A stretch of DNA of 32,235 nt, taken from positions 1 through 32,235 of IMG/VR virus record IMGVR_UViG_3300008450_000245; one strand, given 5' to 3'. Position numbers and translations under genes: made by a program. The notes below the pieces were generated by a model. That model did no database searches. It was not told where the DNA came from and saw nothing but the letters and a program-made list of their open reading frames with translations. Each line of letters begins with the position of its first letter. Position 1 is the stretch's first letter. The DNA comes from a virus. Of this stretch, positions 5,062 to 31,780 are shown in pieces.

Positions 5062-6198
5062 ATGTCAGAAATTAAACAAGAAGGGGAATTTAAAATTAAA
5101 ACTCCAAGGAAGTTAAACAAAATTAACGAGGTAACAAAAGTAAATTTAAAAGCTAAAAAAGAACAAGATGCCATTCAAGAGCAAAGCACAGATGAAAGCG
5201 TGTTGGGCAGCCAACAGCCTACAGTGGGATTGCAAGAAGTGGTCCAAGGAAACGAAGTCACTGAAGTCGTTACCGAAAATAAAGAAAAAGAAATAATTGA
5301 AATGATTGCAGCGCCGCAAGCAGAAGTTGAAACGGTTGCTGAATTAAATGAAATTGTTGCAGAAGCAAAAACATCAGGAGAACCTTTGCCGGAAAACATA
5401 GAAAAGCTTATTGCTTTTATGAAAGAAACTGGCGGTACAATAGATGATTATTCGAGATTAAATGTAGATTACTCGAATATAAAAAGCGAAACATTAATAA
5501 AAGAATATTATAGAAAGTCAAGACCGCATTTAGATGATGATGAGATTCAATTTCTCATGGAAGAAAAATTCAGTTATGACGAAGACGAAGATGATGAGCG
5601 AGACATCAAGAAAAAAAGACTCGAATTTAAAGAAGAGGCAGAAAAAGCAAAAAGGTTCTTGGAAGATGTGAAGTTAAAGTATTATGATGAAATCAAGTTG
5701 AGGCCATCAATTAACAGAGAGCAACAAGAAGCTAATGACTTTTTTAACCGATACAAACAGAACGAAAAGCGTTCAGAGCAATTGCATGGTAAATTCAAAG
5801 AAGATACCAAAAAGTTATTCACCAATGATTTCAAAGGTTTTGATTTCAATTTAGGTGAAAAAACATTGAGGTATAATATACCAAATACCAATGCAGTTAT
5901 TGATAAACAATCAGATATTTCTAACCTAGTTAAGAAGTTCTTAAACGATCAGGGTGAAGTTGTAGATGTTCAAGGGTATCATAAAGCTATGTACGTTGCC
6001 GATAATTCTGAAACAATTATGAAACAAATTTATGAACAAGGCAAAGCAGATGCCGTGAAGGAGATAATGGCTAAGTCTAACAATGTTAACACTACGCCCC
6101 GAACCAGCGCCCCAGAAAGCTTATTTGTAAATGGCATAAAAATCAAAGCAATTAACGGCATGGATTCTAACAAACTAAAAATTAAAAAAATAACTTAA
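5062..6198 (+). CDS. Candidate head scaffolding protein
   Basis: 378 residues, very rich in Glu, Lys and Asp, with no hydrophobic core. The first 35 residues are basic; residues 40-110 are acidic and low-complexity; a patch YDEDEDDERDIKKKRLEF (about residues 171-188) leads into a helical, coiled-coil-like region to about residue 240. The C-terminus is basic (NKLKIKKIT). Charged, helical proteins lying between portal and major capsid genes usually direct procapsid assembly and leave before or during packaging, with a basic C-terminal segment touching the coat. I see no protease motif, so processing of this protein is not predicted. A 30-base AT-rich leader separates it from the portal gene and only 11 bases precede the capsid gene. 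The function is inferred from composition and position. Confidence 0.75.
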   Translation: MSEIKQEGEFKIKTPRKLNKINEVTKVNLKAKKEQDAIQEQSTDESVLGSQQPTVGLQEVVQGNEVTEVVTENKEKEIIEMIAAPQAEVETVAELNEIVAEAKTSGEPLPENIEKLIAFMKETGGTIDDYSRLNVDYSNIKSETLIKEYYRKSRPHLDDDEIQFLMEEKFSYDEDEDDERDIKKKRLEFKEEAEKAKRFLEDVKLKYYDEIKLRPSINREQQEANDFFNRYKQNEKRSEQLHGKFKEDTKKLFTNDFKGFDFNLGEKTLRYNIPNTNAVIDKQSDISNLVKKFLNDQGEVVDVQGYHKAMYVADNSETIMKQIYEQGKADAVKEIMAKSNNVNTTPRTSAPESLFVNGIKIKAINGMDSNKLKIKKIT

Positions 6199-10562: not shown

Positions 10563-13500
10563 ATGGCAGAAATTAAAAATACATTTTTATCGTCTAAGAT
10601 GAATAAAGATCTTGACGATAGACTAGTACCTAACGGAGAATATATTGATGCTTTGAATATACAGGTTGGAAGATCTGAAACAAATGATGTAGGAGCATTA
10701 CAACCAATATTGGGTAACTCTAAAGAGCTTATATCATTAGAAACAAATACAACTCTTGTGTGTATAGGTACATTTATGGATAACCAAAATAATTGTATTT
10801 ATCAATTTTTAACAAATTATAAAGATCCAAACCCGGCCGTTATTACTTTGCCTTCTACAAGTAGAACAATGAAAATAACAGAATACAATTTAGATCTTGG
10901 AACATATACAACTTTAGTTAGTGGGTCATTTTTAAATTTTGCATATAATAAAGAATGTTTAATTTTAGGTGTAAATATAATAGAAGGTTTATTATATTGG
11001 ACTGACAATAGAAACCAGCCAAGAAAAATAAATATAAAAACAGCTAAATCAATACCTGGTTATTATACTAGAGAAGAACATATATCAGTTGCTAAATATG
11101 CTCCTGTGGATCCTATATTTATGTATAAAAAAGTATCCACAAAGATTACAGAAGCTAGTGTTCCTCCATTAGGAACTACTTTTGATGTTGAGGATGCAAC
11201 AGGCATTGAAGTTGGCATGACTTTAAACTATTCAGGGGCAACTTTGAATGACGCAAACATAGTGACTGAAATTAATGGCAATACTATAACTTGTTATTTA
11301 GCTATTAATCCAACGTTAAATGTAGGTGATAAAATATCTTTTTTATCTTCAACTATGACCAATGAATCCGATAATCCAAATTGGCCTGGTGATCCGGATT
11401 TTATAGAAGCTAAATATATTAGATTTAGTTATAGATTTAGATTTGATGATAATGAATATTCTGTTATGGCCCCTTTTACGCAAATAGCGTATATTCCAAA
11501 GCAGAAAGGATATTTTATAAAAGGGAACGAAGAGGATGCATATAAAAGTACGGTTATTAATTGGATGGAAAACAATGTGAATAACATTGAACTCATGATT
11601 CCATTGCCAGATGTTGCAAATAAAATAACTAGTAGTTATAAGATAAAAGAAATAGACGTATTGTATAAAGAGTCAGATTCAGCTGTTGTTAAGGTTTTAG
11701 AAACAATAGATTCAGCAGCATTACAATCTAATTCAACAAACAATATTTATATACAACAATACCAATCCCAAAACCCATATAAGACATTAACCGAAGCTCA
11801 AATAGTAAGAGTATATGACAAGGTGCCTGTAAGAGCTTTAGCTCAGGAAATAACAGGTAATAGAATAATATATGGTAATTTTTATGACAGATATACAGCT
11901 CCTGCTACAATTAATTATAATATAGGAGTATTTAAAAAAAATGTGGGATCTACAAATTACATAGAATACCCAAATCACACGTTAAAACAAAACAGAAATT
12001 ATCAAGTTGGAATTATATTGTCAGACAAGTTCGGCAGAAGTTCTTCAGTTATATTATCTTCCATAGACAAAAATGGACTTGATTTAGCGGGGTCTTTTTT
12101 CGGGGGATCTTCTATATACTCTTCTTATATAAAAGAAGGATCAGTTGATTTTAATGTAAAAAGCTGGATGGGTAATGCTTTATATATGGTAGTTAATGAT
12201 CCTATAACATCCAGTAGGAATATTCCTTCCGGTACTCCGGGTTTATATGCTCAACAGATAGGAAATGGATTCGAAATAGACCTTTTAACCCCTGTAATAA
12301 TTACTGATAGTGGTATTAGTTTTGAAGTAATTAGCGGAACAACTCCTTTAAGGGGACAATACTTGAGGGGACAGTATACAGATTATGTTAGAATTACTAA
12401 TATAACTCCTGGAGATTTACCAACCGATCCTCCTACATACAGTACAGATGGCAGGGCTAGTGACTTATATATTGAAAATCCTGATAATCTACCTGACACA
12501 AAATACGCATATACTATAAACCCAATAGGTTGGTATTCATATAAAGTGGTGGTTAGGCAGCAAGAACAGGATTACTATAACGTTTATCTTCCGGGTATAT
12601 TAAACGGTTATCCTAATGCTCAAACATTTGGATCACAGGTGACATATAGCCCTCAAGGTTTGCCTACTTTGGAGAATGCTATTGACTTTACAGTATTTCC
12701 TCAATCTGAGACTGGTAATACTGCTCATGCTGTATTAATAAACGATAATATAAACAAAGTGCCTCGAGATTTAACCGAGGTTGGCCCTGATCAAAAACAG
12801 TACAGAAGTAGTGTTGAATTATATGGTAGAGTATCAAATGGGAGCGTTGAACTTGGAGGCGAAGATGGGCTAGAAGCAATAGCTCCTCCTAATTATGACC
12901 AAAGAACAAATTACTTTAGTTATGATCCTTTAGGTGCTGATGGCGAGGCCTGGCTCTCTGTTGCTCCTGGGGACGGAATACAAAGCGTGGAAGCTAATGA
13001 ACCCATTCCAAATCCACCAGTAATCCCTCCAGACCCTTCTGCTCCACCTACTGTCCCTAACCCAGACGCTTGGTATGCAAACACAGTAGTTGTAAAAAAC
13101 GATAAACAAAATGGAGTTATACATTTTGCTCCTTTAAACATAATAAGAGGAACTAATGGTAGCCCAATATATAATCATTACATTATAACAAAAGCAGAAA
13201 ACCTACAATATTACCCATCTAGAAAAGCCGATGTGGTTACATCTATTGCTACCTCAAAAGAATTTAACTTTGTAGAAAACTCAGTTACAAACGTAAAAGG
13301 CACTGCTGGGTTAAACTTTTATCAAATGCAATCGGATCCATTAATAAGCAGGATTGCTACTGTTAATGAGATAGGAGTTACATCTGAAAAAGGTATGATA
13401 CCTTTTTTAGCGGTATATGAAACAAAACCCGTAGAATCTTTATTAAATATATTTTGGGAAACATCAACAACTGGGCTTATATCGGATTTAAATTGGGATG

Positions 13501-16388
13501 TATTAACTGGATATGAAGGGCCTGTAGCATTAACCGACCCCGAGTTTGAATTTTGGGAAGATCAAAACCCTAATGGCCTAGAATCAGGTACTGGTGATCC
13601 TGAGTCTCGTTATATAACAGACCCGTTTTTTCCTATTTCAAATTTAGGTATACTTTTAGATGATACTACATTAGAATCATTTACAGTGGAAGACTTAACT
13701 GGAGAAAATAAAACAGGTCTATTTGAGGTAATACAAAATACAACTCCACTTGATCCTGCACAAGGTTCTTATAGAATAAGAATTGCTAAAACGTCTAATT
13801 TTGTTTTTGGACCGCAGTCTTATCAAGAGGATAATTTTGTTTTTACATTAAATATCAAAAGAGTTACTCCAAATGGCACTTCGATAGTACCATTAGAAAT
13901 AACAGGGCGACTAGGCAATAGAATGCCTTATCTTTATCCAGAGGAGTCTTGTATAGACGGTTATTACAATAAAAATATATCTCAAGAAGATACATTTATA
14001 CAAACAATACAAGCTCGCAATGGTTCTTTTATTAACTCAGGAAATGCAGCAAATCAATATTTAAGATTTGAAATAATAAGTCAAAATCCACCTTCGTCAC
14101 CTGGCTATTTTTCTATAGATCCCGATAGTGGAGAATTAAGTTTGATTAATAGTTTAGTGCCAATAGGTTCATATCAGTTAGAAATAAAAGTTACTGATGC
14201 GGTAAACTTTGCTATAAATCCACCTGTGGGCGCCGATACAATAGATCCTTTAGAGGAATTCAGTAGTATGGCTCAAACATGTATAATTGTTATTACTGTA
14301 AACAACCCCCCTGTTAATACTTGGTTACAACCAGGATATAATTTAGCTTTAGAGAATCCACTAGGGTCGGTTTATCCGGCATTGCAGCAGCCATGTAGAG
14401 ATGTCACAACTTATAATTACCCCAATTGGCAACCTGCTGATGGTAGAATATTTGCTATAGATGCAATGTCTGTTCTTGATTATACACAATCCACAATAAA
14501 TATATCTATAAATAATGTTCCGTTACTTTCAGGATATTCTAGGGTTACTTCTCAATATAATTCTCAATTAGTTATTGGAATAAATATAGCCCCTAGTGTA
14601 AACATACCTGCCGGAGCATTCGTACAAATAAATATAGCCCCTGGTGAAAACTCACCTATAACTGATAAGTACGGCCTTTGGGTTGTAGCCGCAGAAAGGT
14701 TATTAGATAGAACATACGGGGCTTTTGACGGAGGCGATCCCGCTCCCGCCGAACTAGATCCAGATGACCCGGCTAACATTCCTTTCTTTGCTCAACTTCC
14801 AGCGGTTCCATTAATGTCAGTTCCTTTTGGTCAACAACCTGAAACAACAAAAGCATATAATACATTTGAAAATATAGAAACAAAAAACGCAGAAGTTTAT
14901 TTTGAGGGATTGGAACATGACATTGAGCCAAATGGATTGCTACAAGGTACATTGCGTTGGACTGTAAGACTATTTATAAGTAGTTATTTAAACCAAGGAG
15001 CAGATGGTCCTTGTCAAGATCTTACTACTGAAATAAAAGGATATGCTAGAATAATTATATTTAGAAGGCCAGCTGTTGACTCTAGATTTACAAATACAAA
15101 TCCATGGGAAATAGTTTCTGATAATAATAATGTTATAGGAACTGGAGCCATTGAAGCGGACAAAGGTAATTTTACTAGTGGATTAAGATCAAATGTCCCT
15201 ACTAACAATGAAAATATAGTTAATGATGACATATTATTAGGGGCAGAATTATTATGGGATTGCGGCGCTGAAAAAAGAGGATATAGAGAAGTAACATTTA
15301 CTACTGAAAATCCAGACGAGAATGCATATGAGTGGGCTGTAGCTGTTTGGTATAGAGATGAATCAAAGTTTGAGCAAACGGGCCCGATAACATCAGATGC
15401 TTGTAATTGTACATTAATAGATGTTTCAGAAAGAATGTATGTTACAGTGGCTGTTGAAGACGCTAATTATACGTATCCAGATTGGGAACCAGGGGATGAT
15501 AATGCACAAGGAGTTACTACGGCATATAAATATTACACAGGATTAGAATATGGTTTAAGTTCTGATAAGAAAACTTACGCTATTCCGTTTGAAGCGCAAA
15601 ACGCAAATATAGTTAATTATCAGTCTGACCCAAATACTGTTTATTCTGCCGTCCCTACTAATCCTAGTCTTGGGGAAACTGTAATAATTAAATTAACAGA
15701 TAATGATACACAAATCGCTCCTGGACTTTTTACTGAGTTCGGAATAGTATCAAGCTTTTGTTTTGTAGACCCTATAGATGGTAGAACTGTGGTAATTGTT
15801 GAATCTAATGGGTTTACTAGTATATCAGCAGGTATGCCAATTACATTTACACTTGTTAACCCGCTTGTAGACCCTAATTTATGCCCGCCAGGAACTCCTA
15901 TTCCTGCGCCTTCTAATTCAGGCATTATATATGCAACTACTCCAGAGGGTTCAGAAGTAGAGCAATTTTATGAGGATGAATTATTAACAACGCCTTGGAA
16001 TCCAACTGGTAATCCAGATGCTACAGACGCTTTTTATAATTTTACACAATGGGATACCCAGTATTTTAATACAGAGGTTTGTGATCTTAATGGAAAGCCT
16101 GAGCCTTTACAAGGTGAACCGGAAACAAGGCCTCAAACGTTTCCTTGGTGGAGCGCTAAAATGACGGCTTCAGGAAAAGTTATAAAACAACCTATTGGAA
16201 ATCCTCCAAACGACCATTATACAGTACAAACAGCATTAAGATTTGCAAATGCCGCTAATACTGGATTTCCAGACCCAGGTATATTATTAGGTAGAAATTT
16301 AAAAGAAAGAAGGCTTGGAGATCCTGATGGATGGGTACCGTATCCTTGTCTACCAGATTTACCAGGAAGTGGTGGAACTGGCCCATAA
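10563..16388 (+). CDS. Giant tail protein (tail nozzle/fibre-like), 1941 residues
   Basis: The N-terminus, NTFLSSKMNKDLDDRLVPNG then EYIDALNIQVGRSETNDVGA, is one I recognise at the start of very large tail proteins in marine and Bacteroidetes podoviruses. It leads into a propeller-like region containing LLYWTDNRNQPRKINI (about residues 143-158). A small beta domain appears inserted at residues 194-262. Further on are a tandem LRGQY duplication (596-605), a Pro-rich linker (about 812-836), a cadherin/Ig-like region (about 1130-1253, with FSIDPDSGELSLINS and GSYQLEIKVTDA), and a 16-residue tandem repeat at about 1340-1371 (INIAPSVN, INIAPGEN). The C-terminus is Pro/Gly-rich. It probably forms the distal tail nozzle or carries receptor-facing domains. 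No depolymerase catalytic motif was recognised. The alternative is a virion surface fibre anchored by its N-terminus. Confidence 0.78.
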   Translation: MAEIKNTFLSSKMNKDLDDRLVPNGEYIDALNIQVGRSETNDVGALQPILGNSKELISLETNTTLVCIGTFMDNQNNCIYQFLTNYKDPNPAVITLPSTSRTMKITEYNLDLGTYTTLVSGSFLNFAYNKECLILGVNIIEGLLYWTDNRNQPRKINIKTAKSIPGYYTREEHISVAKYAPVDPIFMYKKVSTKITEASVPPLGTTFDVEDATGIEVGMTLNYSGATLNDANIVTEINGNTITCYLAINPTLNVGDKISFLSSTMTNESDNPNWPGDPDFIEAKYIRFSYRFRFDDNEYSVMAPFTQIAYIPKQKGYFIKGNEEDAYKSTVINWMENNVNNIELMIPLPDVANKITSSYKIKEIDVLYKESDSAVVKVLETIDSAALQSNSTNNIYIQQYQSQNPYKTLTEAQIVRVYDKVPVRALAQEITGNRIIYGNFYDRYTAPATINYNIGVFKKNVGSTNYIEYPNHTLKQNRNYQVGIILSDKFGRSSSVILSSIDKNGLDLAGSFFGGSSIYSSYIKEGSVDFNVKSWMGNALYMVVNDPITSSRNIPSGTPGLYAQQIGNGFEIDLLTPVIITDSGISFEVISGTTPLRGQYLRGQYTDYVRITNITPGDLPTDPPTYSTDGRASDLYIENPDNLPDTKYAYTINPIGWYSYKVVVRQQEQDYYNVYLPGILNGYPNAQTFGSQVTYSPQGLPTLENAIDFTVFPQSETGNTAHAVLINDNINKVPRDLTEVGPDQKQYRSSVELYGRVSNGSVELGGEDGLEAIAPPNYDQRTNYFSYDPLGADGEAWLSVAPGDGIQSVEANEPIPNPPVIPPDPSAPPTVPNPDAWYANTVVVKNDKQNGVIHFAPLNIIRGTNGSPIYNHYIITKAENLQYYPSRKADVVTSIATSKEFNFVENSVTNVKGTAGLNFYQMQSDPLISRIATVNEIGVTSEKGMIPFLAVYETKPVESLLNIFWETSTTGLISDLNWDVLTGYEGPVALTDPEFEFWEDQNPNGLESGTGDPESRYITDPFFPISNLGILLDDTTLESFTVEDLTGENKTGLFEVIQNTTPLDPAQGSYRIRIAKTSNFVFGPQSYQEDNFVFTLNIKRVTPNGTSIVPLEITGRLGNRMPYLYPEESCIDGYYNKNISQEDTFIQTIQARNGSFINSGNAANQYLRFEIISQNPPSSPGYFSIDPDSGELSLINSLVPIGSYQLEIKVTDAVNFAINPPVGADTIDPLEEFSSMAQTCIIVITVNNPPVNTWLQPGYNLALENPLGSVYPALQQPCRDVTTYNYPNWQPADGRIFAIDAMSVLDYTQSTINISINNVPLLSGYSRVTSQYNSQLVIGINIAPSVNIPAGAFVQINIAPGENSPITDKYGLWVVAAERLLDRTYGAFDGGDPAPAELDPDDPANIPFFAQLPAVPLMSVPFGQQPETTKAYNTFENIETKNAEVYFEGLEHDIEPNGLLQGTLRWTVRLFISSYLNQGADGPCQDLTTEIKGYARIIIFRRPAVDSRFTNTNPWEIVSDNNNVIGTGAIEADKGNFTSGLRSNVPTNNENIVNDDILLGAELLWDCGAEKRGYREVTFTTENPDENAYEWAVAVWYRDESKFEQTGPITSDACNCTLIDVSERMYVTVAVEDANYTYPDWEPGDDNAQGVTTAYKYYTGLEYGLSSDKKTYAIPFEAQNANIVNYQSDPNTVYSAVPTNPSLGETVIIKLTDNDTQIAPGLFTEFGIVSSFCFVDPIDGRTVVIVESNGFTSISAGMPITFTLVNPLVDPNLCPPGTPIPAPSNSGIIYATTPEGSEVEQFYEDELLTTPWNPTGNPDATDAFYNFTQWDTQYFNTEVCDLNGKPEPLQGEPETRPQTFPWWSAKMTASGKVIKQPIGNPPNDHYTVQTALRFANAANTGFPDPGILLGRNLKERRLGDPDGWVPYPCLPDLPGSGGTGP
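12348..12377 (+). repeat. Tandem 15-base repeat inside the giant tail gene
   Basis: Two adjacent 15-base units encode LRGQY LRGQY (residues 596-605 of the 1941-residue protein). They differ at third positions (TTA/TTG, CAA/CAG, TAC/TAT), so the duplication is old or kept by selection on the protein rather than fresh slippage. Confidence 0.8.
14575..14676 (+). repeat. Imperfect 48-base tandem repeat inside the giant tail gene
   Basis: The segment TAAATATAGCCCCT at 14581 recurs at 14629, exactly 48 bases (16 codons) later, with similar flanks. The encoded units begin INIAPSVN and INIAPGEN. The in-frame spacing suggests duplication of a beta-hairpin-sized unit in the tail protein. Confidence 0.65.
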
Positions 16389-16446: not shown

Positions 16447-18006
16447 ATGGCTGCTACTTTAGAACTAAAATATTTTAATTCATTTTGGCTAAAAAAAATG
16501 GATACAATTGTAGACGTGGCCTCAAGCCCGTCAATAACAAGCGGAATTACACCAGCTGAGGCTACATCAATTCTATTAACAAATGATAATCCAGCTGTAA
16601 TGCCTGGGCAATCTGTTACATGGATAAATAGCACCTTAGATCAAGTAACTAATAGCGTTGTATTTATAAGTGCCGATAATTTAACTGTATACCTTGCAAC
16701 GCCAATAGTAGAAGCTATTCCAAGCGGTACGACAATACAATTTGGTCCAATCTCTGATTTCACTTACATACCATATGCTTATAGTGAAACAGAATCTAGC
16801 GACTGGTTTTTAGAAGAGGCTAGAATACGTGGTGGTTATAACAATACTATAACTGATTTAGGTGTTAAAGCACATATTGTTGAAGATATATCTAATCAGC
16901 AGCATAAGTTTAATTCTCTAATATATTCAGGTGTATTTAATTCTAGAACTGGGGTTAATAGAACAAACGAATTTTCAGTTGGAGAAGATATTACTAGATC
17001 GGTAGATCCATCAAATGGTTCAATACAAAAATTATATAGTGAGAATACAAATTTAACTATATTCCAGGAGAACAAAGTAAGTCAAGCGTTAATAGACAAA
17101 GACGCAATATATTCAGCAGAAGGGCAACCAATAACAACATCTGGCAAGCAAGTAATTGGACAAGTCCAAGCTTATGCTGGTAATTATGGCATTAGCACTA
17201 ACCCTGAAAGTTTTGCAGTATATGGCTATAGAAAATATTTTGTTGATAAAAATCAAAACGCAGTTTTAAGATTATCTCAAGATGGTATAACTGAAATATC
17301 AGCATATGGCATGCTTGATTATTTTAGAGACAAATTAGGAACTGTTGGGTCTGGCGGTAAAATAGTAGGTGGATGGGATATGCACTCTAAACAATACGTT
17401 GTTTCAATACAGCCTGTTGGCGTTTCTTCTTATAATACACTTGCTTTTGATGAAAATGCTCAAGGATGGGTAAGCGAATTTAGTTACAAACCAAATTTTA
17501 TAGCTAGTCTTAGAAATAATATGTATACATTTTACCAAGGTAATGTTTGGAAACATTATAGCACAAAGGTAAATAAGGGTACTTTTTATAATATAGGCAA
17601 TAATTCCTATGTTACTTTAGCAATTAATCCAGAGCCTTCAATATCTAAAAACTTTAGCACAATAAATTATGAAGGATCAGCAGGGTGGAATGTCACTAGT
17701 ATACAAACTAATTCAGATACAGGGCTAGGTATTGAAGCATACATGGTGCCTTTAACATTAGCGGACTTGCAAGCGCAACTTTTAGTAAACTCCTTTAAGA
17801 AAAAAGAAAATAAATATTTTGCATCAATAAACAATAGTACAGGAGGTGCTTATGGGGAAGTTGTATATGGACAATCTATAAGCGGTATAAAAGGATACTA
17901 TGCTACAGTTTCATTATTAATAAACAACGCAATATATGGTGCTCCTACGCTTTCAAATATAGAATTATTTGCAGTCTCTTTGAGTTACCAAAATTTAACA
18001 TATTAA
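16447..18006 (+). CDS. Conserved tail structural protein
   Basis: 519 residues. After LELKYFNSFWLKKM there is a beta domain (about residues 36-102, with PGQSVTWINSTLDQ and LTVYLATPIVEAIPSGTTIQ). The conserved body follows: DWFLEEARIRGGYNNTITDL, HKFNSLIYSGVFNSRTGVNR, FSVGEDITRSVDPSNGSIQK, then YGYRKYFVDKNQNAVLRLSQ. I recognise this body from uncultured marine phages, where it is annotated only as a structural or tail protein. It probably completes the propeller-like tail assembly begun by the 1941-residue protein. A single fused gene in some relatives is possible but not something I can confirm. The first ATG is chosen because LELKYFNSFW seems to be the conserved start. The stop overlaps the next start by one base (TAATG). 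Confidence 0.8.
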   Translation: MAATLELKYFNSFWLKKMDTIVDVASSPSITSGITPAEATSILLTNDNPAVMPGQSVTWINSTLDQVTNSVVFISADNLTVYLATPIVEAIPSGTTIQFGPISDFTYIPYAYSETESSDWFLEEARIRGGYNNTITDLGVKAHIVEDISNQQHKFNSLIYSGVFNSRTGVNRTNEFSVGEDITRSVDPSNGSIQKLYSENTNLTIFQENKVSQALIDKDAIYSAEGQPITTSGKQVIGQVQAYAGNYGISTNPESFAVYGYRKYFVDKNQNAVLRLSQDGITEISAYGMLDYFRDKLGTVGSGGKIVGGWDMHSKQYVVSIQPVGVSSYNTLAFDENAQGWVSEFSYKPNFIASLRNNMYTFYQGNVWKHYSTKVNKGTFYNIGNNSYVTLAINPEPSISKNFSTINYEGSAGWNVTSIQTNSDTGLGIEAYMVPLTLADLQAQLLVNSFKKKENKYFASINNSTGGAYGEVVYGQSISGIKGYYATVSLLINNAIYGAPTLSNIELFAVSLSYQNLTY

Positions 18007-21051: not shown

Positions 21052-24000
21052 ATGTTTGACTACGTAGACAGTTTAGGTAACACAATTACATACGATCAAA
21101 TTACTAAAATGGCGAAGGAGGGTAAAACCTCCTTTGACGCTATAGTTAAAAAAAATGGGTATAAACCAAAACCTAAAGCGACTAAAGCAAAAGCGGGGGC
21201 CGAACTTTTAGGAATAGACACTACAACTAAAAAAGTTCCTGTTGTAACTACTGAAGAAAAGAAAACTCCTGTTGCTAAAAAAACTGTAATAGAAAACAAA
21301 CCAACATTTGCCCCAAGTATTGATCCATTTGCAGGTACAAACCTTGCTCAGCCTGTAGTAGGCGGTAGAGAAATGTTGTTATCTGAAGAATATAAAAAAG
21401 AAAGAGCAAGAAAATTACAAGAAGAAAAAAAACAACTTGAAATAGACGAAGCAGCATTAAAAGCAAGAGAAGCTAAAAGAGCTAATAAAAAACTTTTAAC
21501 AGAAAATAAAACAGTATTTGACAAAGCAAATGAATATATAAATAGTATTGTATTAAATACAGACGAAAAAGAAGAACAAAGCAAAAAGGCTGTAGACGAA
21601 ATAAATGGAAATACATTTCTTGAGAAAGCAAAAGGAGCTGCTGCAATATGGGCAGGTGCTATTGTAGACTCCGCTACTTTAGGTGCTCTTAGTGATGGGA
21701 AATTTGATTTAGCAGATCGCTGGCGAGAGAATTGGTCAATAAATAAAGAATACACCGATAAAGCTAAGGAGGAATTAAAAAAGAAAAAAGCAGCATGGGA
21801 AATACAAAATAAAAAATACCCATTATATAAAATACCAGAGCCAGTTATTGACGAAAGCAGTGTTTATGACTTGGCTATAAAACTACGCCAACAAGATAAT
21901 GAAAAAGCTCTTATTATACAAAAAGAACAAGAATGGTTTGATGCTAACGAAGACTTCATAAATCAAAATTATAAGCCTAAAGGAGGTCTTTATAAAGCCG
22001 GGACGATTAAGGATATTCCTAAGCTTTCGGACCCATTGTCTGTTGTGAATATTACCAAAAGTTTTAATACTACTAATAAAGATATAATAAAAACGTTTAG
22101 TAAAAATGAAGTAGCAAAAGCTGAAGCGGCAATATTAAAAGATCAAAAGAAAGAAGAAGCCCTAGAAGACTTTAAATACCAAAGCTTTGTTAAATTAAAC
22201 AAAATAAGTGAGCAAGCTAATCAATTAGCTAAAGATAACCAAGCTGTTCCTGAAGAATTAATAAAAGAATACAATAATAGTTTAAACTATTTTAAATATT
22301 TTTCTGAAAGACAAACGGATATAAACACGGAATTATCTAAAACTTATGAGAAATTTAATGATTACGAAAATATTGTAGATAGTTTTAATAGAGATTGGGG
22401 GCGCATTAGTAATATAATTGAGTCTGGAAATCAAATATTTCAAACTGCCGCTACTGGTATTGAAGGGGCTTTAGATTGGGCCATGAAATATAATAGTATG
22501 GCAGGAGCTATAAATGGTATGGCTTATCTATTTGACAAAGAATCTCCTATTACTGAAGAAGCTACTAGTTTTTGGGGCAATGTAGCATTAAATAGCAAAA
22601 AAGAACAAGAAGAAAGGGCTCTTGAGTTTGCTAAACAAAATCCAGACTTGTCATTTTCGGATTACTCTTTAAAAGATTTTGCGGATTTTGCTGTAAAAGA
22701 AACAATGAATGTAGGTAGTGTTTTAGCTCACTTTTCTAATCCAGTCGGCATTGGTTTATTTGTCGCAGAAGCAGGAGGTAATAAGCAAGTTGAAATGCTA
22801 GAAGAAATGGAGCGTGAGCCAGGTAAATATAATGAGTTCCAAAAATTTGCTTTACCATTAACATATGCGGGGGTTGATGCCGTACTTGCTTATGGTATGA
22901 AAGGGCAAATAGATAAAGCTAAACTTTTATATGCAGCAGGTAATAACACTCAAAAAAATATTATAAGAAAAGGTTTTTTCCAATACTTAACTCCGTCAGA
23001 AAAACTCGCGGCAGGAGTTAAAGACTGGGGAGGAGCGGTATTGCATAGTAATGCCATAATGGGTGGAGCTGTTTTTTCTAAGAATGCGTTGAATATAATT
23101 GTTGGCGAAGCTGACAAATCCACTATCTTTGACGGATTAGATGGGCATTTAGTTGCATCGGCAACATTTTTTGCGGGGTTAACTAAAGGAGCACCTTTAG
23201 TAGCTTCTGAAGCTATGTATAGATTAAGCGGCGATAAAGCCATTGATACACAATCAAAAAAGATAGTCGGGTATGAAGAAAAGCTTAGAAGTACAATTTC
23301 TAGTAATGAAAAAAAGGTAATACAGGAGTTATTAGCTAAAGCTAAATTGGATTTAAATATAATGTTAGAAGGTAAAAACGAAAAACTAAAAACATTAAAT
23401 AATAAACAATGGAGCAGTCTAATTTCCTCAAATAAAAAAAGCCAAGAGATTTTAAAACAAGGAAAAGAAATTAAAAATGACAAATCTATTTCTGATGAAA
23501 TAAAAAGAGATAGATTAAAAGAATTAGAAAAAGAGTTTAACGAATATCAAAAGCAAAAAACAGAGTTATTTGAATTTGGATATAAGGTACAATATGAGGC
23601 AATGTCAAAAACCGTACGCGGTACTCAATTAAGAGATTACTTTAGAGGACAAGCTGAAAGAATAGTACAAGAAGAAGTAAAAATAAGAGAAGAAAAAGGA
23701 GAAAAAATTGATCCTAAAAAAACAGAGGATATTATAAGATATTACTCAGTACTATTATCAGAAAGAGCTAATGCGAATGCCGTTGAGATGTATGCTAATA
23801 ATGAAAAAGCAATAAAGTTTAATGGAGTAGAAGAGTTTACTGGTAATAAACCTTTTATTTTTGGTGATGCTGCAAATAATTTAACCGTGCTAGAATTTGC
23901 TGATGGTAAATTGCTGCAAAAATATTTTGATGAAAACCCAGATCAAAGGGTTAAAAAAGAAGGAGAAAAAAACTCTGATGGCACACAAAAGTATTATACT

Positions 24001-27000
24001 GCAAATGAAATTTTAAGATTAAATTATGGTATAACTTTACTTAATGGCCAAAAAATAGTAAGTTATGAAAGTGCTGCAGTTGCGGGAAGAAAGTTTACAG
24101 GTATACATGAAACTGGCCATGACTTATTTAAGAGTTTTACCGCCATGGAACCAGCTAAGCAAAAGAAAATCTTAGATGAATTTCTTGACGAATTAAGTAA
24201 TGAAGATAGAGCAGCTTTAGAAAAAAGATTAGAAGGTTATAGTGAAACTGAGCGTGCGGAAAACATAGACGAGTACTTTACTCAGTATATTGAAATAGCT
24301 TTAGAAAAGAAAGGAAAAAAAGGAGATCTTAAAGCAGCAGAAGAAATAGAAACTGATGGAAGTATTGATTTTACCTCTGGTAAAGATATAAAGCAATACA
24401 TAGACAATGTTCTTCCTGCTGAGTACGAAACAGGTAACCGTAGCGCTCGAACAAAGGAATTACAAAAGAAAGCATCTGAAATTAGGGCCCAAGAAGCAAA
24501 AAGCAGTGCTTCTTTTTCAAAAGCTAAAGTTGAGGAAGTTCAAAAAAAGATAGATAAACTAGAAGAACAATTTGACAATGGAGAAATTGATTACGACGAT
24601 TATACAGGTAGACTTGAAGCGTTTGAAAAAGACTTAGAAAAAGCAAAAAAATTACCTGAAGAAGCAACGAAACCTACAATTAAAAAAGAAGTTACAGAGG
24701 AAGAGGCAGATAAAGAAATAATAAAAAATGAAAGAGGATCTGTATCTTCTGATAAAGTTCAAAAAATATACGAGGAACAAGGAGTAAACGGCGCGCAAGC
24801 TATTATAGATCTATTTAAACCTATTACTAAAAAATTAGTAAATAAAAGAATGGACGCTCCAGGGTTTGATAGAGAATTGTTAACAAGCGAAATAGAAACT
24901 GGAGATGGTGGTCTTTTTTACCTTATTAGAAGTTATAAACCTGAAAAGGGAGTTCCATTAGCAGCCTATATAAATAAACAATTACCATTAAGAGCAATTG
25001 CGGCGTCAAGAAGAGTATTAGATAAAGACTTTAGTAAAGACGTAACAGAAGAAAAAGGATTAATTGCTGAAGAAACAAAAATTCAAGCGGAAGAAAAACC
25101 AATATATAAAGATGCATTAGAATCAAATGTATTTGAGCCTAAAGTCTTAGAAGATGCTAATAAAAAAATATTAACTGTGGTAAGAACAATGAAAGCTAGG
25201 GTAGATGCTCCAGTTTCATTGAACAGAACAGTAAGTCCTTTTATTGCAGAATTAAAAGATGAAATAGGAAAATTACTTGACATTGATATTAAAACAGCAA
25301 TGGGAGGTAAAAAAGATGGGCAACTTGAAAGTTGGGCTTTAAAAAATAAAAAATACTTTCTTGAAAATATGACTACTACATTTTTAATGGGTAAAGATGG
25401 TCAAGGGGGAGTGCCTCAAGCAATTCAAAAACGTATTGGTGGAAAGTGGGTTAGTTATCCGGAATGGGTTGGTCAAAAAATTGATAGAGAAGCAGTTACA
25501 ACTGATCAAGCGGGTAGAACAGCTGGGCATGAATTAACTAGGCGTCTGCCTAATGTAGCTAATAATGTGTCTGACAAAGTTTTTTTAGGGCAATTAATTG
25601 GTCCAGATGGTAATCCAATTAGAGGTAGAAAAGAATCTTGGTCTAAAGCTATTGCTGATGAACTTACATTGGATATTGTAAAAAATGACATTAAAAAAAA
25701 TGGACCTATATCTGATGCTATTAAATATAACCAAGAAGCAAAGGGGGTTTCAATAACTGATGCATTTAATAATGAAATATTAAGGCAAAGCGAAAGAGGT
25801 AATGTAAAATATTCAAAAAGTTTAAAAGAAACTTTTAAAAAATCTCAAGATTACCTTAATATTGGATTTGAAATATTTAAAAATGATTTAAAAAGACCGG
25901 GGGTTACGGGTGATGAGACTATAAAAATTATTAATGATTTTATTAAAAATGAAGGGCGATCTATAAGAACTATGGCTTATACTATGTTTGGTAAAGGGGC
26001 CGAATTAACTAAAAATGAAAAATTATTTGAATATATTAAGGATCATATAGACACATATTCTCCATATAAAGGGGAGTTACTAGATGAAAATCATTATAGA
26101 TTAAAGAATATAGGTCAAAACAAAAGTATATTTTTTGGTAAAACAAAGGTTCCAACATGGCTAGATACCGAATCCTTAAAAAAGAATTGGGAAAAACTTA
26201 AACCTAAAGCAACCGAAGAAGCGGTAATAGCCACTGATGAGCTTGTTGATAAATTAAAATCATTAAAAAAACAAAATTATTCTGATAAAGAAATAGAAGA
26301 TTATTTTAAATTAATAAACTTTGATCAAAGAGGATTATCGCGTAAAGTTTCAAAACCTGGGATTGGTGTTGAAGGAATAACAAAAAAACAAAAAGCTTAT
26401 TTAGAGCATAATCCGCCAAAATATGACATAGTAAGAAAAGCTATGGACTTTTATAAAGGAAGAATTACTGAACAAGAATTAAGAGATTTTATAAATAACG
26501 CAAAAGTAAATTTAGTTCCAGAAGGCCTTAATGACGTATTACCTGCTTATGCTGAAGGTAAAAATAGAATGGACGATCCTGCTGTTGTTTTATATCTAAA
26601 AAAATTAATGGATAATGGGCAGAAAATTACAAATTTAGAAAGTGAGTATGGATCTATTGAAAACTTTAATGCAAAAGTAAAATTAGCAGAGTCAGGTGTA
26701 AATTCAAAAGAAACATTAGCTAATATTGATAGAATAATGGCTATTGATAGATCGTTAACAGCAAAAAAGTCAAAAGCTGAAAAAGGTATTTCTGTTTTTG
26801 ATTTTGATGACACGGTTGGGTTAACAAAAGGTAGTGTGCTATACACAATGCCTGATGGCAAAAAAGGCAAATTAAATGCTGAAGAATTTGCTAAAAATGG
26901 ATCTAAACTTTTAAACGAAGGAGCGGAATTTGATTTTTCTGAATTCAGTAAAGTTGTAGGCGGTAAGCCAGGCCCTATGGTTGAAAAGATGAAGAAGATG

Positions 27001-29535
27001 ATCGGTAAATTTGGGCCAGATAATTTTTTTATTCTTACAGCTCGCCCTGCTGATGCCGCTGGGCCTATCCATGAATTCTTATCATCAATAGGTATTGATA
27101 TCCCATTAGAAAACATAACAGGGTTAGGAAATAGCACAGGAAAAGCAAAAGCGGACTGGATGGTTGGAAAAGCTGCTGAAGGATATAATGATTTTTACTT
27201 TGCTGATGATGCTCCACAAAATGTTAAAGCAGTGCGTGACGCGTTAGATGTGTTAGATGTTAAATCAAAAATTCAACAAGCCAAACTTAAGTTTAGTAAA
27301 GCCATGTCCGATGACTTCAATAAAATTATTGAAGAGGTTAAAGGGGTAGAAAGTTATAAAGTATATTCTGATATTACAGCAAGAAGGAAAGGTATTAATA
27401 AAAATAAATTTGACTTTTATGTTCCGCCATCTGCGGCTGATTTTGAATTATTGCTTTATAATTTTATGGGTAAAGGAGCAGAAGGAAAGGCTCATAAAAA
27501 ATTCTTCCAAGATGCTTTAATAAAACCATATATAAACGGAGTTGATTTAATGGACTCAGTTAGACAGTCTATAAAGAAAGACTATAAAGCGTTGTTAAAG
27601 TCCTTCCCTGAGGTCAAAAAAGAACTTGAAAAATTAACTCCTAATAAAGATTTTACATACGATCAAGCTATGCGTGTTGCAATATGGGATCAATATGGGG
27701 TAGAAATACCTGGTTTATCAGCAAGAGATAAAACTTATTTATCTGATCTTGTTAATAATAATCCAGAACTTGCCGCTTTCAAAGATGGATTAATTGTAAT
27801 GGGTAGACAAAAAGAAGGATGGTTACCGCCAGATAATTTTTGGGATGCTAATACTATTGTTTCAGATTTATATAATATAACAGAAGGATCAGGTAGAAAA
27901 AAATTCTTAGGTGAATTTATTGAAAATGCTGAAAATATTTTTGGTAAATGGGAAGATGGTAGATTAGTTGGTCCTAACATGAATAAGGTAGAAGCTACTT
28001 ATGGAACAAATGTTAGAGAAGCATTAGAAGATTCTATATACAGGATGACTAATGGTAAAAACAGAAGTTTTGGTCAGGATAAAGAGAGTGCTGCTTGGTC
28101 TAGTTGGGTAAATGGTTCTACGGGATCTATCATGTTCTTAAATACTCGATCCGCTGCGTTACAGTTATTAGGAGCAGTTAACTTTTTAAATTTTAGAGAT
28201 AACAATCCGTATAATGCAGCTAAAGCATTTGCGAACCAAAAACAATACTGGAAAGATTTTTCTCGTATATGGAATTCAGATAAGTTAAAAGAAAGACGTG
28301 GCGGACTAAGAGAAGATGTTGCCTCTGCTGAGATTGCTAATGCGGCGGCAGGAAGTAAAAACAAGGTTGTTGCAGTAACATCGTATTTATTAAAAATAGG
28401 TTATACACCGACACAAATAGCAGATAGTTTTGCTATTGCTTCTGGAGGTGCTCCTTTTTATAGAAATAGAATTAAAACTTATTTAAAAGAAGGATTACCA
28501 GAAGTAGAAGCGGAAGCAAAAGCTTGGGAAGAGTTCTCAAAAGTTTCAGATGAAACACAACAATCAGGAGATCCAAAAGATATATCAAAACAACAGGCAA
28601 GTAGCGCCGGTAGAATATTACTTGTATTCCAAAACTTTACCATGCAACAGTCTCGTATAGTTAAAAAAGCTGCATTAGATCTTAAAAATGGAAGAGGAGA
28701 TGCCAAAACTAACATATCTAAAATAGTTTATTATTTAGCCGTACAAAATATAATGTTCTCCGCATTGCAACAAGGTTTATTTGCTGTTATGTTTGATGAG
28801 GAAAGTGAAGAGGATAAAAAAGCTAAAAATAAAAAAACAAAAGAGGATGCGGCTTATGACGTTGCAAACGGGGTATTAGATAGTATACTTAGAGGTACAG
28901 GGTTTGTTGGAGGAGTTACTGCAACATTAAAAAATACTGTTATTAAATACTTTGAGGAACAAGCAAAAAAACAAAAAGCAGAATATGCAAAAGTTGTTTT
29001 AGAAGCAGCAAATATGTCACCCCCTATTGGTTCTAAATTTAGAAAAATATATAGTGCACTACAACAAACTAAATATGACAAAGATTTAATAAAAGAAAGA
29101 GGATGGGGAGTTATGCAAGACGGGCGAGTTCATTTGGGCCCTATGTACTCTGTAAGTGGAAAACTTGTTGAAGCAACAACTAACTTTCCAATGGACCGAT
29201 TAGTTAATAAAGTTGAAAATGTATCACAAGCATTTAATTCTGATAACACTGCAGTACAAAGACTTGCTGTAGGAATGGGTTATTCACCTTGGACAGTTGG
29301 TATTGAAGGAACCAAAGGAGATATACTCATAAAAGAAACTGCTAAAGCAACACGTAAAGAAGAAGGTATAATAAAAGCTATTGAAACAAGAGAAGCAACT
29401 AAAGATAGCATACGAAGCTTAAAAGGAGAAGGCAGACTAAATTATCTTAAACAACAAAGAAAAGAAAAAATAGAAGCAAGAAAAAGAAAAATAGAAAGGC
29501 AAGAGAAAAGAAATAAAAGAAGAATGGGAGAATAA
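21052..29535 (+). CDS. Giant polyvalent ejection protein with metallopeptidase, sigma-like and HAD domains
   Basis: 2827 residues, probably carried in the virion and injected with DNA. From the N-terminus: a short start domain; Lys/Glu-rich linkers and coiled coil (about 100-480); a more hydrophobic Gly/Ala region (about 480-740); more coiled coil; then a zinc-metallopeptidase motif HETGH (H1019-H1023) with downstream acidic residues E1070/E1074. Residues of about 1247-1330 resemble sigma region 2 (LFYLIRSYKPEKGVPLAAYI). A HAD-type domain follows, with FDFDDT (D1917, D1919), LTARP (T1996), K2033 and FADDA (D2052, D2053). Near the end is a hydrophobic helix (IVYYLAVQNIMFSALQQGLF) and a basic Arg/Lys tail. 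The HAD and C-terminal modules are ones I recognise from other long phage virion proteins. It is the last of three ejection-type genes, like T7 gp16. There are no internal stops and no sign of fusion error. Confidence 0.85.
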   Translation: MFDYVDSLGNTITYDQITKMAKEGKTSFDAIVKKNGYKPKPKATKAKAGAELLGIDTTTKKVPVVTTEEKKTPVAKKTVIENKPTFAPSIDPFAGTNLAQPVVGGREMLLSEEYKKERARKLQEEKKQLEIDEAALKAREAKRANKKLLTENKTVFDKANEYINSIVLNTDEKEEQSKKAVDEINGNTFLEKAKGAAAIWAGAIVDSATLGALSDGKFDLADRWRENWSINKEYTDKAKEELKKKKAAWEIQNKKYPLYKIPEPVIDESSVYDLAIKLRQQDNEKALIIQKEQEWFDANEDFINQNYKPKGGLYKAGTIKDIPKLSDPLSVVNITKSFNTTNKDIIKTFSKNEVAKAEAAILKDQKKEEALEDFKYQSFVKLNKISEQANQLAKDNQAVPEELIKEYNNSLNYFKYFSERQTDINTELSKTYEKFNDYENIVDSFNRDWGRISNIIESGNQIFQTAATGIEGALDWAMKYNSMAGAINGMAYLFDKESPITEEATSFWGNVALNSKKEQEERALEFAKQNPDLSFSDYSLKDFADFAVKETMNVGSVLAHFSNPVGIGLFVAEAGGNKQVEMLEEMEREPGKYNEFQKFALPLTYAGVDAVLAYGMKGQIDKAKLLYAAGNNTQKNIIRKGFFQYLTPSEKLAAGVKDWGGAVLHSNAIMGGAVFSKNALNIIVGEADKSTIFDGLDGHLVASATFFAGLTKGAPLVASEAMYRLSGDKAIDTQSKKIVGYEEKLRSTISSNEKKVIQELLAKAKLDLNIMLEGKNEKLKTLNNKQWSSLISSNKKSQEILKQGKEIKNDKSISDEIKRDRLKELEKEFNEYQKQKTELFEFGYKVQYEAMSKTVRGTQLRDYFRGQAERIVQEEVKIREEKGEKIDPKKTEDIIRYYSVLLSERANANAVEMYANNEKAIKFNGVEEFTGNKPFIFGDAANNLTVLEFADGKLLQKYFDENPDQRVKKEGEKNSDGTQKYYTANEILRLNYGITLLNGQKIVSYESAAVAGRKFTGIHETGHDLFKSFTAMEPAKQKKILDEFLDELSNEDRAALEKRLEGYSETERAENIDEYFTQYIEIALEKKGKKGDLKAAEEIETDGSIDFTSGKDIKQYIDNVLPAEYETGNRSARTKELQKKASEIRAQEAKSSASFSKAKVEEVQKKIDKLEEQFDNGEIDYDDYTGRLEAFEKDLEKAKKLPEEATKPTIKKEVTEEEADKEIIKNERGSVSSDKVQKIYEEQGVNGAQAIIDLFKPITKKLVNKRMDAPGFDRELLTSEIETGDGGLFYLIRSYKPEKGVPLAAYINKQLPLRAIAASRRVLDKDFSKDVTEEKGLIAEETKIQAEEKPIYKDALESNVFEPKVLEDANKKILTVVRTMKARVDAPVSLNRTVSPFIAELKDEIGKLLDIDIKTAMGGKKDGQLESWALKNKKYFLENMTTTFLMGKDGQGGVPQAIQKRIGGKWVSYPEWVGQKIDREAVTTDQAGRTAGHELTRRLPNVANNVSDKVFLGQLIGPDGNPIRGRKESWSKAIADELTLDIVKNDIKKNGPISDAIKYNQEAKGVSITDAFNNEILRQSERGNVKYSKSLKETFKKSQDYLNIGFEIFKNDLKRPGVTGDETIKIINDFIKNEGRSIRTMAYTMFGKGAELTKNEKLFEYIKDHIDTYSPYKGELLDENHYRLKNIGQNKSIFFGKTKVPTWLDTESLKKNWEKLKPKATEEAVIATDELVDKLKSLKKQNYSDKEIEDYFKLINFDQRGLSRKVSKPGIGVEGITKKQKAYLEHNPPKYDIVRKAMDFYKGRITEQELRDFINNAKVNLVPEGLNDVLPAYAEGKNRMDDPAVVLYLKKLMDNGQKITNLESEYGSIENFNAKVKLAESGVNSKETLANIDRIMAIDRSLTAKKSKAEKGISVFDFDDTVGLTKGSVLYTMPDGKKGKLNAEEFAKNGSKLLNEGAEFDFSEFSKVVGGKPGPMVEKMKKMIGKFGPDNFFILTARPADAAGPIHEFLSSIGIDIPLENITGLGNSTGKAKADWMVGKAAEGYNDFYFADDAPQNVKAVRDALDVLDVKSKIQQAKLKFSKAMSDDFNKIIEEVKGVESYKVYSDITARRKGINKNKFDFYVPPSAADFELLLYNFMGKGAEGKAHKKFFQDALIKPYINGVDLMDSVRQSIKKDYKALLKSFPEVKKELEKLTPNKDFTYDQAMRVAIWDQYGVEIPGLSARDKTYLSDLVNNNPELAAFKDGLIVMGRQKEGWLPPDNFWDANTIVSDLYNITEGSGRKKFLGEFIENAENIFGKWEDGRLVGPNMNKVEATYGTNVREALEDSIYRMTNGKNRSFGQDKESAAWSSWVNGSTGSIMFLNTRSAALQLLGAVNFLNFRDNNPYNAAKAFANQKQYWKDFSRIWNSDKLKERRGGLREDVASAEIANAAAGSKNKVVAVTSYLLKIGYTPTQIADSFAIASGGAPFYRNRIKTYLKEGLPEVEAEAKAWEEFSKVSDETQQSGDPKDISKQQASSAGRILLVFQNFTMQQSRIVKKAALDLKNGRGDAKTNISKIVYYLAVQNIMFSALQQGLFAVMFDEESEEDKKAKNKKTKEDAAYDVANGVLDSILRGTGFVGGVTATLKNTVIKYFEEQAKKQKAEYAKVVLEAANMSPPIGSKFRKIYSALQQTKYDKDLIKERGWGVMQDGRVHLGPMYSVSGKLVEATTNFPMDRLVNKVENVSQAFNSDNTAVQRLAVGMGYSPWTVGIEGTKGDILIKETAKATRKEEGIIKAIETREATKDSIRSLKGEGRLNYLKQQRKEKIEARKRKIERQEKRNKRRMGE

Positions 29536-29908: not shown

Positions 29909-31780
29909 CTATACAACTTCACAATTACCTCCTCCACATGCTTGTGAATCTGAAAAGTTTGTATTGTCTTGAACCTCAATTACTTTAGACAGATCAACAT
30001 TATGTAATGTAGACATCATCTGTTCGTATACTTCCTTAGTACAATCTTCAAATGGTGTTTGTTTATAAGTTCCGCCGTGATAAGGCAATACAGATAAACC
30101 ATTATAGTATTCTTTATTTGCCCACATCCATTCACCAACAATTTTCCACTCATCATCACGTACAGAAACAGTACAAGAAACATTATGTGTATTGTTACCT
30201 TTATCATGACCAGTCTTAACCCAATCTTTAGAAATCAATTTAACTCTTTCTAATAGATCTAATGTTGACTCATGACGCGTTATGGCTCCATCTGGAGCTT
30301 TCTGAGGCACAGAAACAACTGCTTGTAATGTTGGATTAAAATATTCATCTTCGATCAGTTCTGGATGATTTATTGCAAGATATGAATAGATTGCTTCATT
30401 CTTGCCTAAACGCATACGGCGAATATAATAGTCGTTATGCCAAGCGTGAATACCGCTAGAAGTGCCAAGTACAAGGCTAGTAGTTCCTGCCGGCTTAACT
30501 GCGGTGGTTCTGGCCGCCTTGTTGATATTAAGAGCCGACGCAATAATATTATTTGTTTCCTTAACAACCTGTGCTGCTTCTTCATAATTTAAACATTGTA
30601 TATTGTGTTTTGATGCAATACCTGTCATTGATACTCCAAGCAATGCATCTTTTTCTGTGTTTTTTCTCCATATATCTCTTAAGTAGTGGAAGTCTGAATA
30701 TGATGCTTGCAATGTTCCAATGAATGATGCAGCCGAAGCTCTTGCATTAAAATCTTCTTGACTTTCAATATCTGCCATATTAATCTCCGTAAGATTACAA
30801 AATTGATATGGTCTTAAAGCAATCTCACAGCAAGGATTGGTCCCCCAGTCTTTATCATTAGTTAAGTAAATACCCGGTTCGCCGGATCCTGATGCCTCAA
30901 TACGTTCCCATACTTTATCAAATGTTTTCTTATCAATCTTATGACGTAACAAAACAACTGAATTATTAGATCTACCTCGTTGTGGATTATCTTCCCACCA
31001 GTTACCAGCTTTACAATTTAGCATTGCATCTGAATCAAGATCAAATAAACTAATCATTGCTGCTCTACGAATACCACCAGCTAAAACTGCGTCGGCAATA
31101 TGACACTGAATATCATGGCACTCAATATCTGTTAGTTTAGATCTATCTTCCTTTTCACGTAATACAGCTTCAATCTTTACCAATGCAATTCTTAATGGCT
31201 CAGGGCCCGGTGCTTTACCTCCAGCTGTTATAAGTAAAGCTCCTTTAGGTCTTATATCAGAGAAGTCAAACTCTATATGCGAAGTTAGCCCTCCTGTATA
31301 AGATTTAAATAAAGCCTTAACTGCATCTGCCCATCCAATTATACTATCCTGAACAACATACTTTTTTTTACGATTGTAATTAGGTTTTCTGATTTCAGGA
31401 AGTTTCTCAATGTGGTGGTTCTGGACCGAATAACCCACTCCAGTCCCTCCAAGAAGTAAAAACATAGTCTCAGAAAAACTATGAATACTATCAACAGGTA
31501 AGAAAGCACAGTTATAAACGCGAGCATTATTAAGCTCAATAGCTTTACCACCAAACTGTAAGCTTCGCATCGAAGGTAAAACTTTTTTAGTAAATACAAA
31601 ATTCTTGTAAACTTGTTCAATTGATTCTTTCATTTTCGGGAACTTAGTAGTGTGCATTTCCATGTTGCGTGTTACTAATTCATCCCAGGTTTCTCTTCTC
31701 TCTTTTTCCGGTAAATATTTAGCATACTTAGTGTATACTGTAATGTCACTTAATATTTGCTTATCTAAGCTTAAACTCAT
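29909..31780 (-). CDS. nrdJ: Class II (adenosylcobalamin-dependent) ribonucleotide reductase
   Basis: 623 residues. It reduces ribonucleotides to deoxyribonucleotides for phage DNA synthesis. Key residues are visible: the first redox Cys in ARVYNCAFLP (C91); the glycine-rich GGTGVGYSVQ; the active-site loop NPCCEIAL, with thiyl-radical Cys C317 and N315/E319; the second redox Cys in PYQFCNL (C328); the phosphate-binding PAGTTSLVLGTSSG; and a C-terminal C-x4-C (C615, C620) that shuttles electrons from thioredoxin. NGLSVLPYHGGTYKQTPFED fits monomeric class II enzymes. No radical-generating beta subunit lies nearby and the Tyr pair of class I is not seen near the C-terminus, so B12 dependence is the best reading. 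It is shorter than the Lactobacillus enzyme (739 residues), as is common in phages. No intein is present. A 14-base gap follows the preceding small gene. Confidence 0.92.
   Translation of the reverse strand: MSLSLDKQILSDITVYTKYAKYLPEKERRETWDELVTRNMEMHTTKFPKMKESIEQVYKNFVFTKKVLPSMRSLQFGGKAIELNNARVYNCAFLPVDSIHSFSETMFLLLGGTGVGYSVQNHHIEKLPEIRKPNYNRKKKYVVQDSIIGWADAVKALFKSYTGGLTSHIEFDFSDIRPKGALLITAGGKAPGPEPLRIALVKIEAVLREKEDRSKLTDIECHDIQCHIADAVLAGGIRRAAMISLFDLDSDAMLNCKAGNWWEDNPQRGRSNNSVVLLRHKIDKKTFDKVWERIEASGSGEPGIYLTNDKDWGTNPCCEIALRPYQFCNLTEINMADIESQEDFNARASAASFIGTLQASYSDFHYLRDIWRKNTEKDALLGVSMTGIASKHNIQCLNYEEAAQVVKETNNIIASALNINKAARTTAVKPAGTTSLVLGTSSGIHAWHNDYYIRRMRLGKNEAIYSYLAINHPELIEDEYFNPTLQAVVSVPQKAPDGAITRHESTLDLLERVKLISKDWVKTGHDKGNNTHNVSCTVSVRDDEWKIVGEWMWANKEYYNGLSVLPYHGGTYKQTPFEDCTKEVYEQMMSTLHNVDLSKVIEVQDNTNFSDSQACGGGNCEVV

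Follow-up and report, generated by a model that had tools for sequence, protein, structure and literature searches.

The analyzed stretch of viral DNA (IMG/VR record IMGVR_UViG_3300008450_000245, positions 1 to 32,235; hereafter the window, 32,235 nucleotides in length) carries a structural module in which the terminase, the portal, and the subsequent structural genes lie in the same order as in Cellulophaga phage phi18:3, the elemo phages, and MW202828. The final structural gene encodes a giant protein, as it also does in phi18:3, elemo, and MW202828. In phi18:3, many structural genes and the syntenic giant gp123 were annotated from virion MS/MS. The giant of the window shows weak N-terminal homology to gp123 (profile E value, 8e-17, with high bias; blastp E value, 6e-4). 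The description of this giant as a virion protein, made in an earlier note on the same DNA, is supported by the collinear module and by the MS/MS annotation of its syntenic counterpart, and the giant is probably present in virions. The following features of the giant were located in the window:

21052..29535, + strand: giant virion-module protein of 2827 aa, closing gene of the structural module (open reading frame; collinearity with phi18:3, elemo, and MW202828)
24106..24120, + strand: HETGH zincin-like metallopeptidase motif, residues 1019-1023 (sequence)
24745..25050, + strand: sigma-70 region 2-like domain, residues ~1232-1333 (profile-profile comparison, PDB profile search, AlphaFold and Foldseek)
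24748..24846, + strand: counterpart of sigma region (1.2-)2.1, formed by helices at residues 1233-1254 and 1256-1265, with invariant F1255, P1257, and I1258 (DSSP of the model; residue mapping)
24871..24933, + strand: counterpart of region 2.2, formed by helices at residues 1274-1282 and 1288-1294, LLTSEIETGDGGLFYLI (DSSP of the model; hhalign; residue mapping)
24958..25017, + strand: counterpart of regions 2.3-2.4, a single long helix at residues 1303-1322, LAAYINKQLPLRAIAASRRV (DSSP of the model; residue mapping)
25099..25716, + strand: downstream domain with no assigned fold, residues ~1350-1555 (conservation among relatives)
26764..27291, + strand: HAD-phosphatase-like segment, residues ~1905-2080, with DFDDT, TARP, and ADD motifs (motif reading; kept in relatives)
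27292..29307, + strand: conserved C-terminal region, residues 2081-2752 (common to nearly all relatives)

Elsewhere in the module, the gene at 16447-18006 contains the C-terminal domain of crassvirus muzzle proteins (PF25729; E value, 1.8e-7), here in a phage from the vicinity of Pachyviridae/elemo. A cadherin-like domain (PF00028; E value, 5.9e-7) was found in the 1941-aa structural protein encoded at 10563-16388. Residues 30-94 of the small structural gene at 5062-6198, QEQSTDESVLGSQQPTVGLQEVVQGN, recur in the giants of MW202828 and elemoB with 46-50% identity, and this segment may represent a module for virion targeting or cleavage that these proteins have in common. Behind the giant, a ribonucleotide reductase gene (PF02867, class II-like; 29909-31780, - strand) opens a module on the opposite strand.

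Around the sigma-2-like domain, the giant is built of several further units. A match to phrog_8246 (residues 1041-1219; E value, 2.3e-6) lies close to the HETGH motif. A strictly conserved zincin neighbour was not found among 103 giants, 16 of which carry HExxH within 400 aa upstream. The HAD-phosphatase-like segment gave no match in the Pfam search. The downstream domain is conserved within the near clade and is replaced or strongly diverged elsewhere; a fold search returned no match of its own. The tripeptide FSK is approximately 4-fold over-represented in the giants and occurs mostly within the linkers between domains. In this giant it is found at residues ~1155, ~1587, and ~2081 (window ~24514, ~25810, and ~27292), and the relatives show the same pattern; examples are NAVFSKEASDKVQ directly ahead of the sigma-2-like domain and MFSK behind the next domain. 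These linker motifs are possible candidates for processing sites. As a multidomain protein of 2827 aa encoded by a structural-module gene, the giant fits the phage polyvalent protein type as judged from its sequence. The virion of phicrAss001 carries cargo proteins, among them RNA-polymerase-associated giants, that are modelled as ejected (PMC10172136), and by analogy the giant of this flavobacterial virus is probably injected into the host cell with the DNA.

The earlier note had read part of the giant as a sigma-70 region 2-like segment. The motifs on which that reading was built were recovered within a few residues of where it had placed them (residues 1251-1333, 24802-25050): IIDLFKPITKKLVNKRM corresponds to residues 1251-1267 (24802-24852), GDGGLFYLIRSYKPEKGVPL to residues 1284-1303, AAYINKQLPLRAIAASRRVL to residues 1304-1323, and DVTE, which ends at 25050, to residues 1330-1333. 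The conserved unit is a little longer than first noted, spanning residues ~1232-1333 (~24745-25050).

Single-sequence searches of Pfam, PHROGs, and the PDB gave nothing useful. No member of the domain family reached the Pfam cut-off, and no above-cut-off match to PF04542 was found in the window. Viral alignments of 42 sequences (A3) and of 20 diverse sequences (A5) were compared by hhalign with a reference alignment of sigma region 2 from 17 sigma factors of E. coli, phages, and plasmids. The scores were 29.4 for A3 and 41.8 for A5, the latter with a P value of 2.7e-7 and a probability of 93%. The maximum score of the column-shuffled controls was 20.7 in 300 shuffles of A3 and 20.9 in 399 shuffles of A5, and the reversed alignments scored 10.8 and 12.7, respectively. 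When 131-residue windows were taken over the entire giant, a score above 16 was obtained only in the two covering the segment (33.9 and 30.5). The profile comparison with sigma-70 region 2 proposed in the earlier note thus yielded a significant match, well above every shuffled score (≤20.9), and the resemblance is real and beyond chance by the shuffle, reversal, and window controls alike. In profile searches of the PDB, the best match was a sigma factor for each of A1, A3, and A5, and sigma factors made up 7 of 11, 3 of 9, and 10 of 14 of the matches listed, respectively, led by SigK, RpoS, and FliA chains, each E value being just 0.02-1.6.

No region 3 or region 4 signal above background was detected along the giant, in agreement with the earlier remark that no region 4 lies nearby. 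A candidate region 4 at residues ~1040-1070 was rejected: its Sigma70_r4_2 match (E value, 0.066) is at noise level, and the surroundings are poorly conserved.

An AlphaFold model of the domain, built from the 42 viral sequences only and with no sigma sequences in the input, had a pLDDT of 83.7 overall and approximately 90 in the core. When it was compared with the PDB by Foldseek, sigma factors accounted for 49 of the best 50 matches, with RpoS at the top (probability, 0.97), and the structural comparison likewise suggested in the note revealed no different fold. A match labelled RPSB was counted as what we take to be B. subtilis sigma-B, following UniProt naming. Against a viral library, sigma factors led again, alongside A0A218ML07, an uncharacterised giant of an uncultured virus that superimposes on the model with a TM score of 0.63 and an rmsd of 1.7 A. 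The Foldseek E values of this small helical domain were 0.2-3 and the TM scores ~0.45-0.6; because these E values are weak, the weight of the argument lies with the ranking and with the agreement between methods. The marginal individual E values would also suit a convergent small helical bundle with a chance motif, unrelated to sigma. Such convergence is highly improbable, since the profiles, the profile-profile controls, and the sigma-free structure prediction all point to sigma region 2, and the shuffle and window controls already refute it for the most part. We consider it very likely that the segment and sigma-70 region 2 are divergent homologues. The earlier wording of a region 2-like, partial sigma is thereby backed by both sequence profiles and predicted fold; the segment is a sigma-2-only module, or sigma-2-like domain, for which the name sigma factor would be inappropriate.

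It is well established which residues of sigma-70 contact the core enzyme or DNA. The family aligns with sigma-70 without gaps from G408 through the 2.3 helix, and in the region 2.2 equivalent LLTSEIETGDGGLFYLI aligns with FLDLIQEGNIGLMKAV of E. coli sigma-70. G408, G411, an aromatic residue (F/Y) at 419, P at 421, G424, and an aliphatic residue at 427 are kept in the family. The equivalent of D403 is D in 78% of members and S in this giant. The core-binding D-L-I-Q-E motif is partly kept (Q406 to E, E407 to T), and the core-contact positions L384 and V387 are changed to K and T, respectively. In the long helix, which has one extra residue (a proline) compared with sigma, Y1306 corresponds to Y430 and K1309 to W433. 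Of the promoter-melting aromatics of region 2.3 (Y430, W433, and W434), Y430 is retained in 95% of the family, and the equivalent of the first tryptophan, W433, is K in 95%. The W434 equivalent is aromatic in ~75% of members and Q in this giant. Seven positions are invariant among the 20 diverse sequences of A5 (G58, G71, P73, L74, Y77, I78, and R85), four of which map onto conserved sites of sigma region 2 (G411, G424, F427, and Y430). The earlier note had let its reading depend on the conservation of core- and DNA-facing residues, and this held in part: the equivalents of D403, G408, G411, F/Y419, G424, and Y430 are present, but a near-invariant K has taken the place of W433. The core-facing side appears to be partly preserved and the promoter-melting side altered. 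Given this mixed pattern, with W433 replaced by K, core docking would be a likelier function than promoter recognition of the conventional kind.

The most conserved stretch of the domain is the 2.3-2.4 equivalent (VPLAAYINK.LP.RAI..S.R), in which R1314 and R1321 are invariant in A3. Together with the several core-contact positions that are unlike sigma, and with the packaging of the protein alongside DNA, these arginines would fit a nucleic acid-binding module that plays no part at RNA polymerase and whose 2.3-2.4 face contacts (single-stranded) phage DNA, either inside the capsid or in the course of ejection. We regard this possibility as rather unlikely. The core-facing equivalents of D403, G408, and G411 are also retained in most members, and a separate sigma with no detectable RNA polymerase in the lineage fits a role related to RNA polymerase.

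A direct search with the segment found 22 viral loci, and a profile search of IMG/VR found at least 221 encoding stretches, 80 of which were kept. A deliberately loose pattern added distant versions (L158, L161, and L172). The domain was not found by the pattern method in cellular genomes, one genome each of ~85 thousand species, and tblastn with the giant or the domain found no relative among cultured phages. The domain is absent from the giants of the cultured or named relatives MW202828, elemoB, and phi18:3. Between the giant and its distant relatives, only two parts align, namely, residues ~1232-1350 with ~50-64% identity and the C-terminal third (~1905-2752) with ~40-55% identity; the higher identity of the former indicates that the sigma-2-like unit is the best-kept part of the giant. 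Among close relatives, dN (0.004-0.1) was far below dS (0.4-0.9; NG86), indicating strong purifying selection. This constraint bears on whether the sigma-2 fold might be an exapted scaffold, retained solely for the structure or packing of the virion protein. The replacement of W433, the blurred core motif, and the position of the domain within a long, linker-rich protein are compatible with such a role. We nevertheless find it improbable: nothing else in the central giant is as well conserved as this domain, whose neighbours have diverged beyond recognition, an unusual situation for a spacer, and the syntenic giants of cultured relatives manage without it.

The transcription genes of the lineage were searched in 14 domain-bearing contigs of 62-68 kb (long relatives). 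PF04542 matched in 12 and PF04545 in 13 of them, and by reading of the open reading frames a separate sigma of 253-274 aa is present in all 14 when either region 2 or region 4 is counted. This free phage sigma belongs to PHROG 351 (E value, 2.8e-23) and is divergent, with regions 2 and 4 (L187-L200, e.g., L193:184-960). No match to the beta subunit (PF00562) was found in any of the 14 long relatives. PF00940 likewise matched in none, an absence that carries little weight because the control also had no match anywhere. No sigma gene was found in the window, which is a genome fragment. MW202828, elemoB, and phi18:3 have neither the sigma-2-like domain nor a sigma gene. The co-occurrence of the domain with a free sigma is suggestive, but with 14 genomes against 3 it may be due simply to common descent. 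An origin of the domain in the free sigma of the phage was also weighed and set aside: the domain is no closer to that sigma than to cellular sigma, although the phage-sigma profile is shallow.

The same co-occurrence could be explained if the domain were a decoy or adaptor that binds host or phage sigma regulators (anti-sigma factors), or the phage's sigma, and not the core. A fold retained while the surface residues depart from sigma would agree with this role. No anti-sigma gene or partner was identified, and we judge such an activity quite improbable.

The reading we prefer, tentative as a statement of function, is that the sigma-2-like domain docks on the host RNA polymerase core once the giant has been ejected. 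The sigma-2-like domain, built into a polyvalent giant of a Bacteroidota podovirus lineage, would be ejected together with the genome and would dock on the beta-prime clamp-helices of the host core, the usual seat of host sigma region 2. The docked domain may then compete with host sigma or hold the core near the entering DNA, and the host enzyme would thereby be prepared for a hand-over to the phage's own sigma. The whole chain, from ejection through docking on the host RNA polymerase core and competition with host sigma to preparation for the phage sigma, is plausible, if a little short of probable. Less probable, though still conceivable, is a bolder form of it: in phages without an RNA polymerase of their own, a virion-delivered, sigma-2-only factor would occupy or condition the host core at entry, before the complete phage sigma is made. 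The domain hints that the virus may engage host transcription from the very start of infection.

Entire RNA polymerases (N4, crAss-like phages) and RNA polymerase-modifying enzymes (T4 Alt) are known to reach the cell as injected proteins. If the proposal is true, a virion-delivered partial sigma would be a third route to transcription takeover at time zero. A full-text search among open-licence papers found no description of sigma-70 region 2 in virion fusions and no earlier description of entry-time sigma appropriation. The analysis opens a concrete and cheap question, core binding by a domain of ~110 aa, and points to a domain that is widespread but unannotated in environmental Bacteroidota phages and that co-occurs with a free phage sigma.

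Compared with known systems, the domain resembles sigma-70 region 2 (PF04542; RpoS, SigK, FliA, and RpoD) in its predicted helical fold and helix order, in the equivalents of G408, G411, F/Y419, G424, and Y430, and in aligning without a gap between G408 and the 2.3 helix. It differs from the sigma-70 family in remaining below the Pfam cut-off, in lacking regions 3 and 4, in the change of W433 to K, in the one-residue insertion in the 2.3-2.4 helix, and in being embedded in a 2827-aa virion-module protein. With phage polyvalent proteins (PMC5512222), the giant shares its very large size, multidomain build, place in the structural module, zincin-like and HAD-like segments, and predicted injection. 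In the survey of these proteins by Iyer et al. (2017), sigma is unmentioned in the main text, and the transcription-related examples are N4-like RNA polymerases and protein-modifying enzymes (PMC5512222). The giant is also like gp45-gp47, gp49, and gp50 of phicrAss001, which are giants encoded with tail and muzzle genes, and the window has a muzzle domain; the cargo proteins of phicrAss001 are in the virion and linked to early transcription (PMC10172136). Whereas crAss001 packages its own RNA polymerase, a sigma factor and the sigma-2-like domain are found here, and no RNA polymerase was found in the long relatives. Phage-encoded sigma factors of PHROG 351, among them the free sigma found in this lineage, are homologous to the domain in region 2, but they are small separate proteins with complete regions 2 and 4, encoded outside the virion module.
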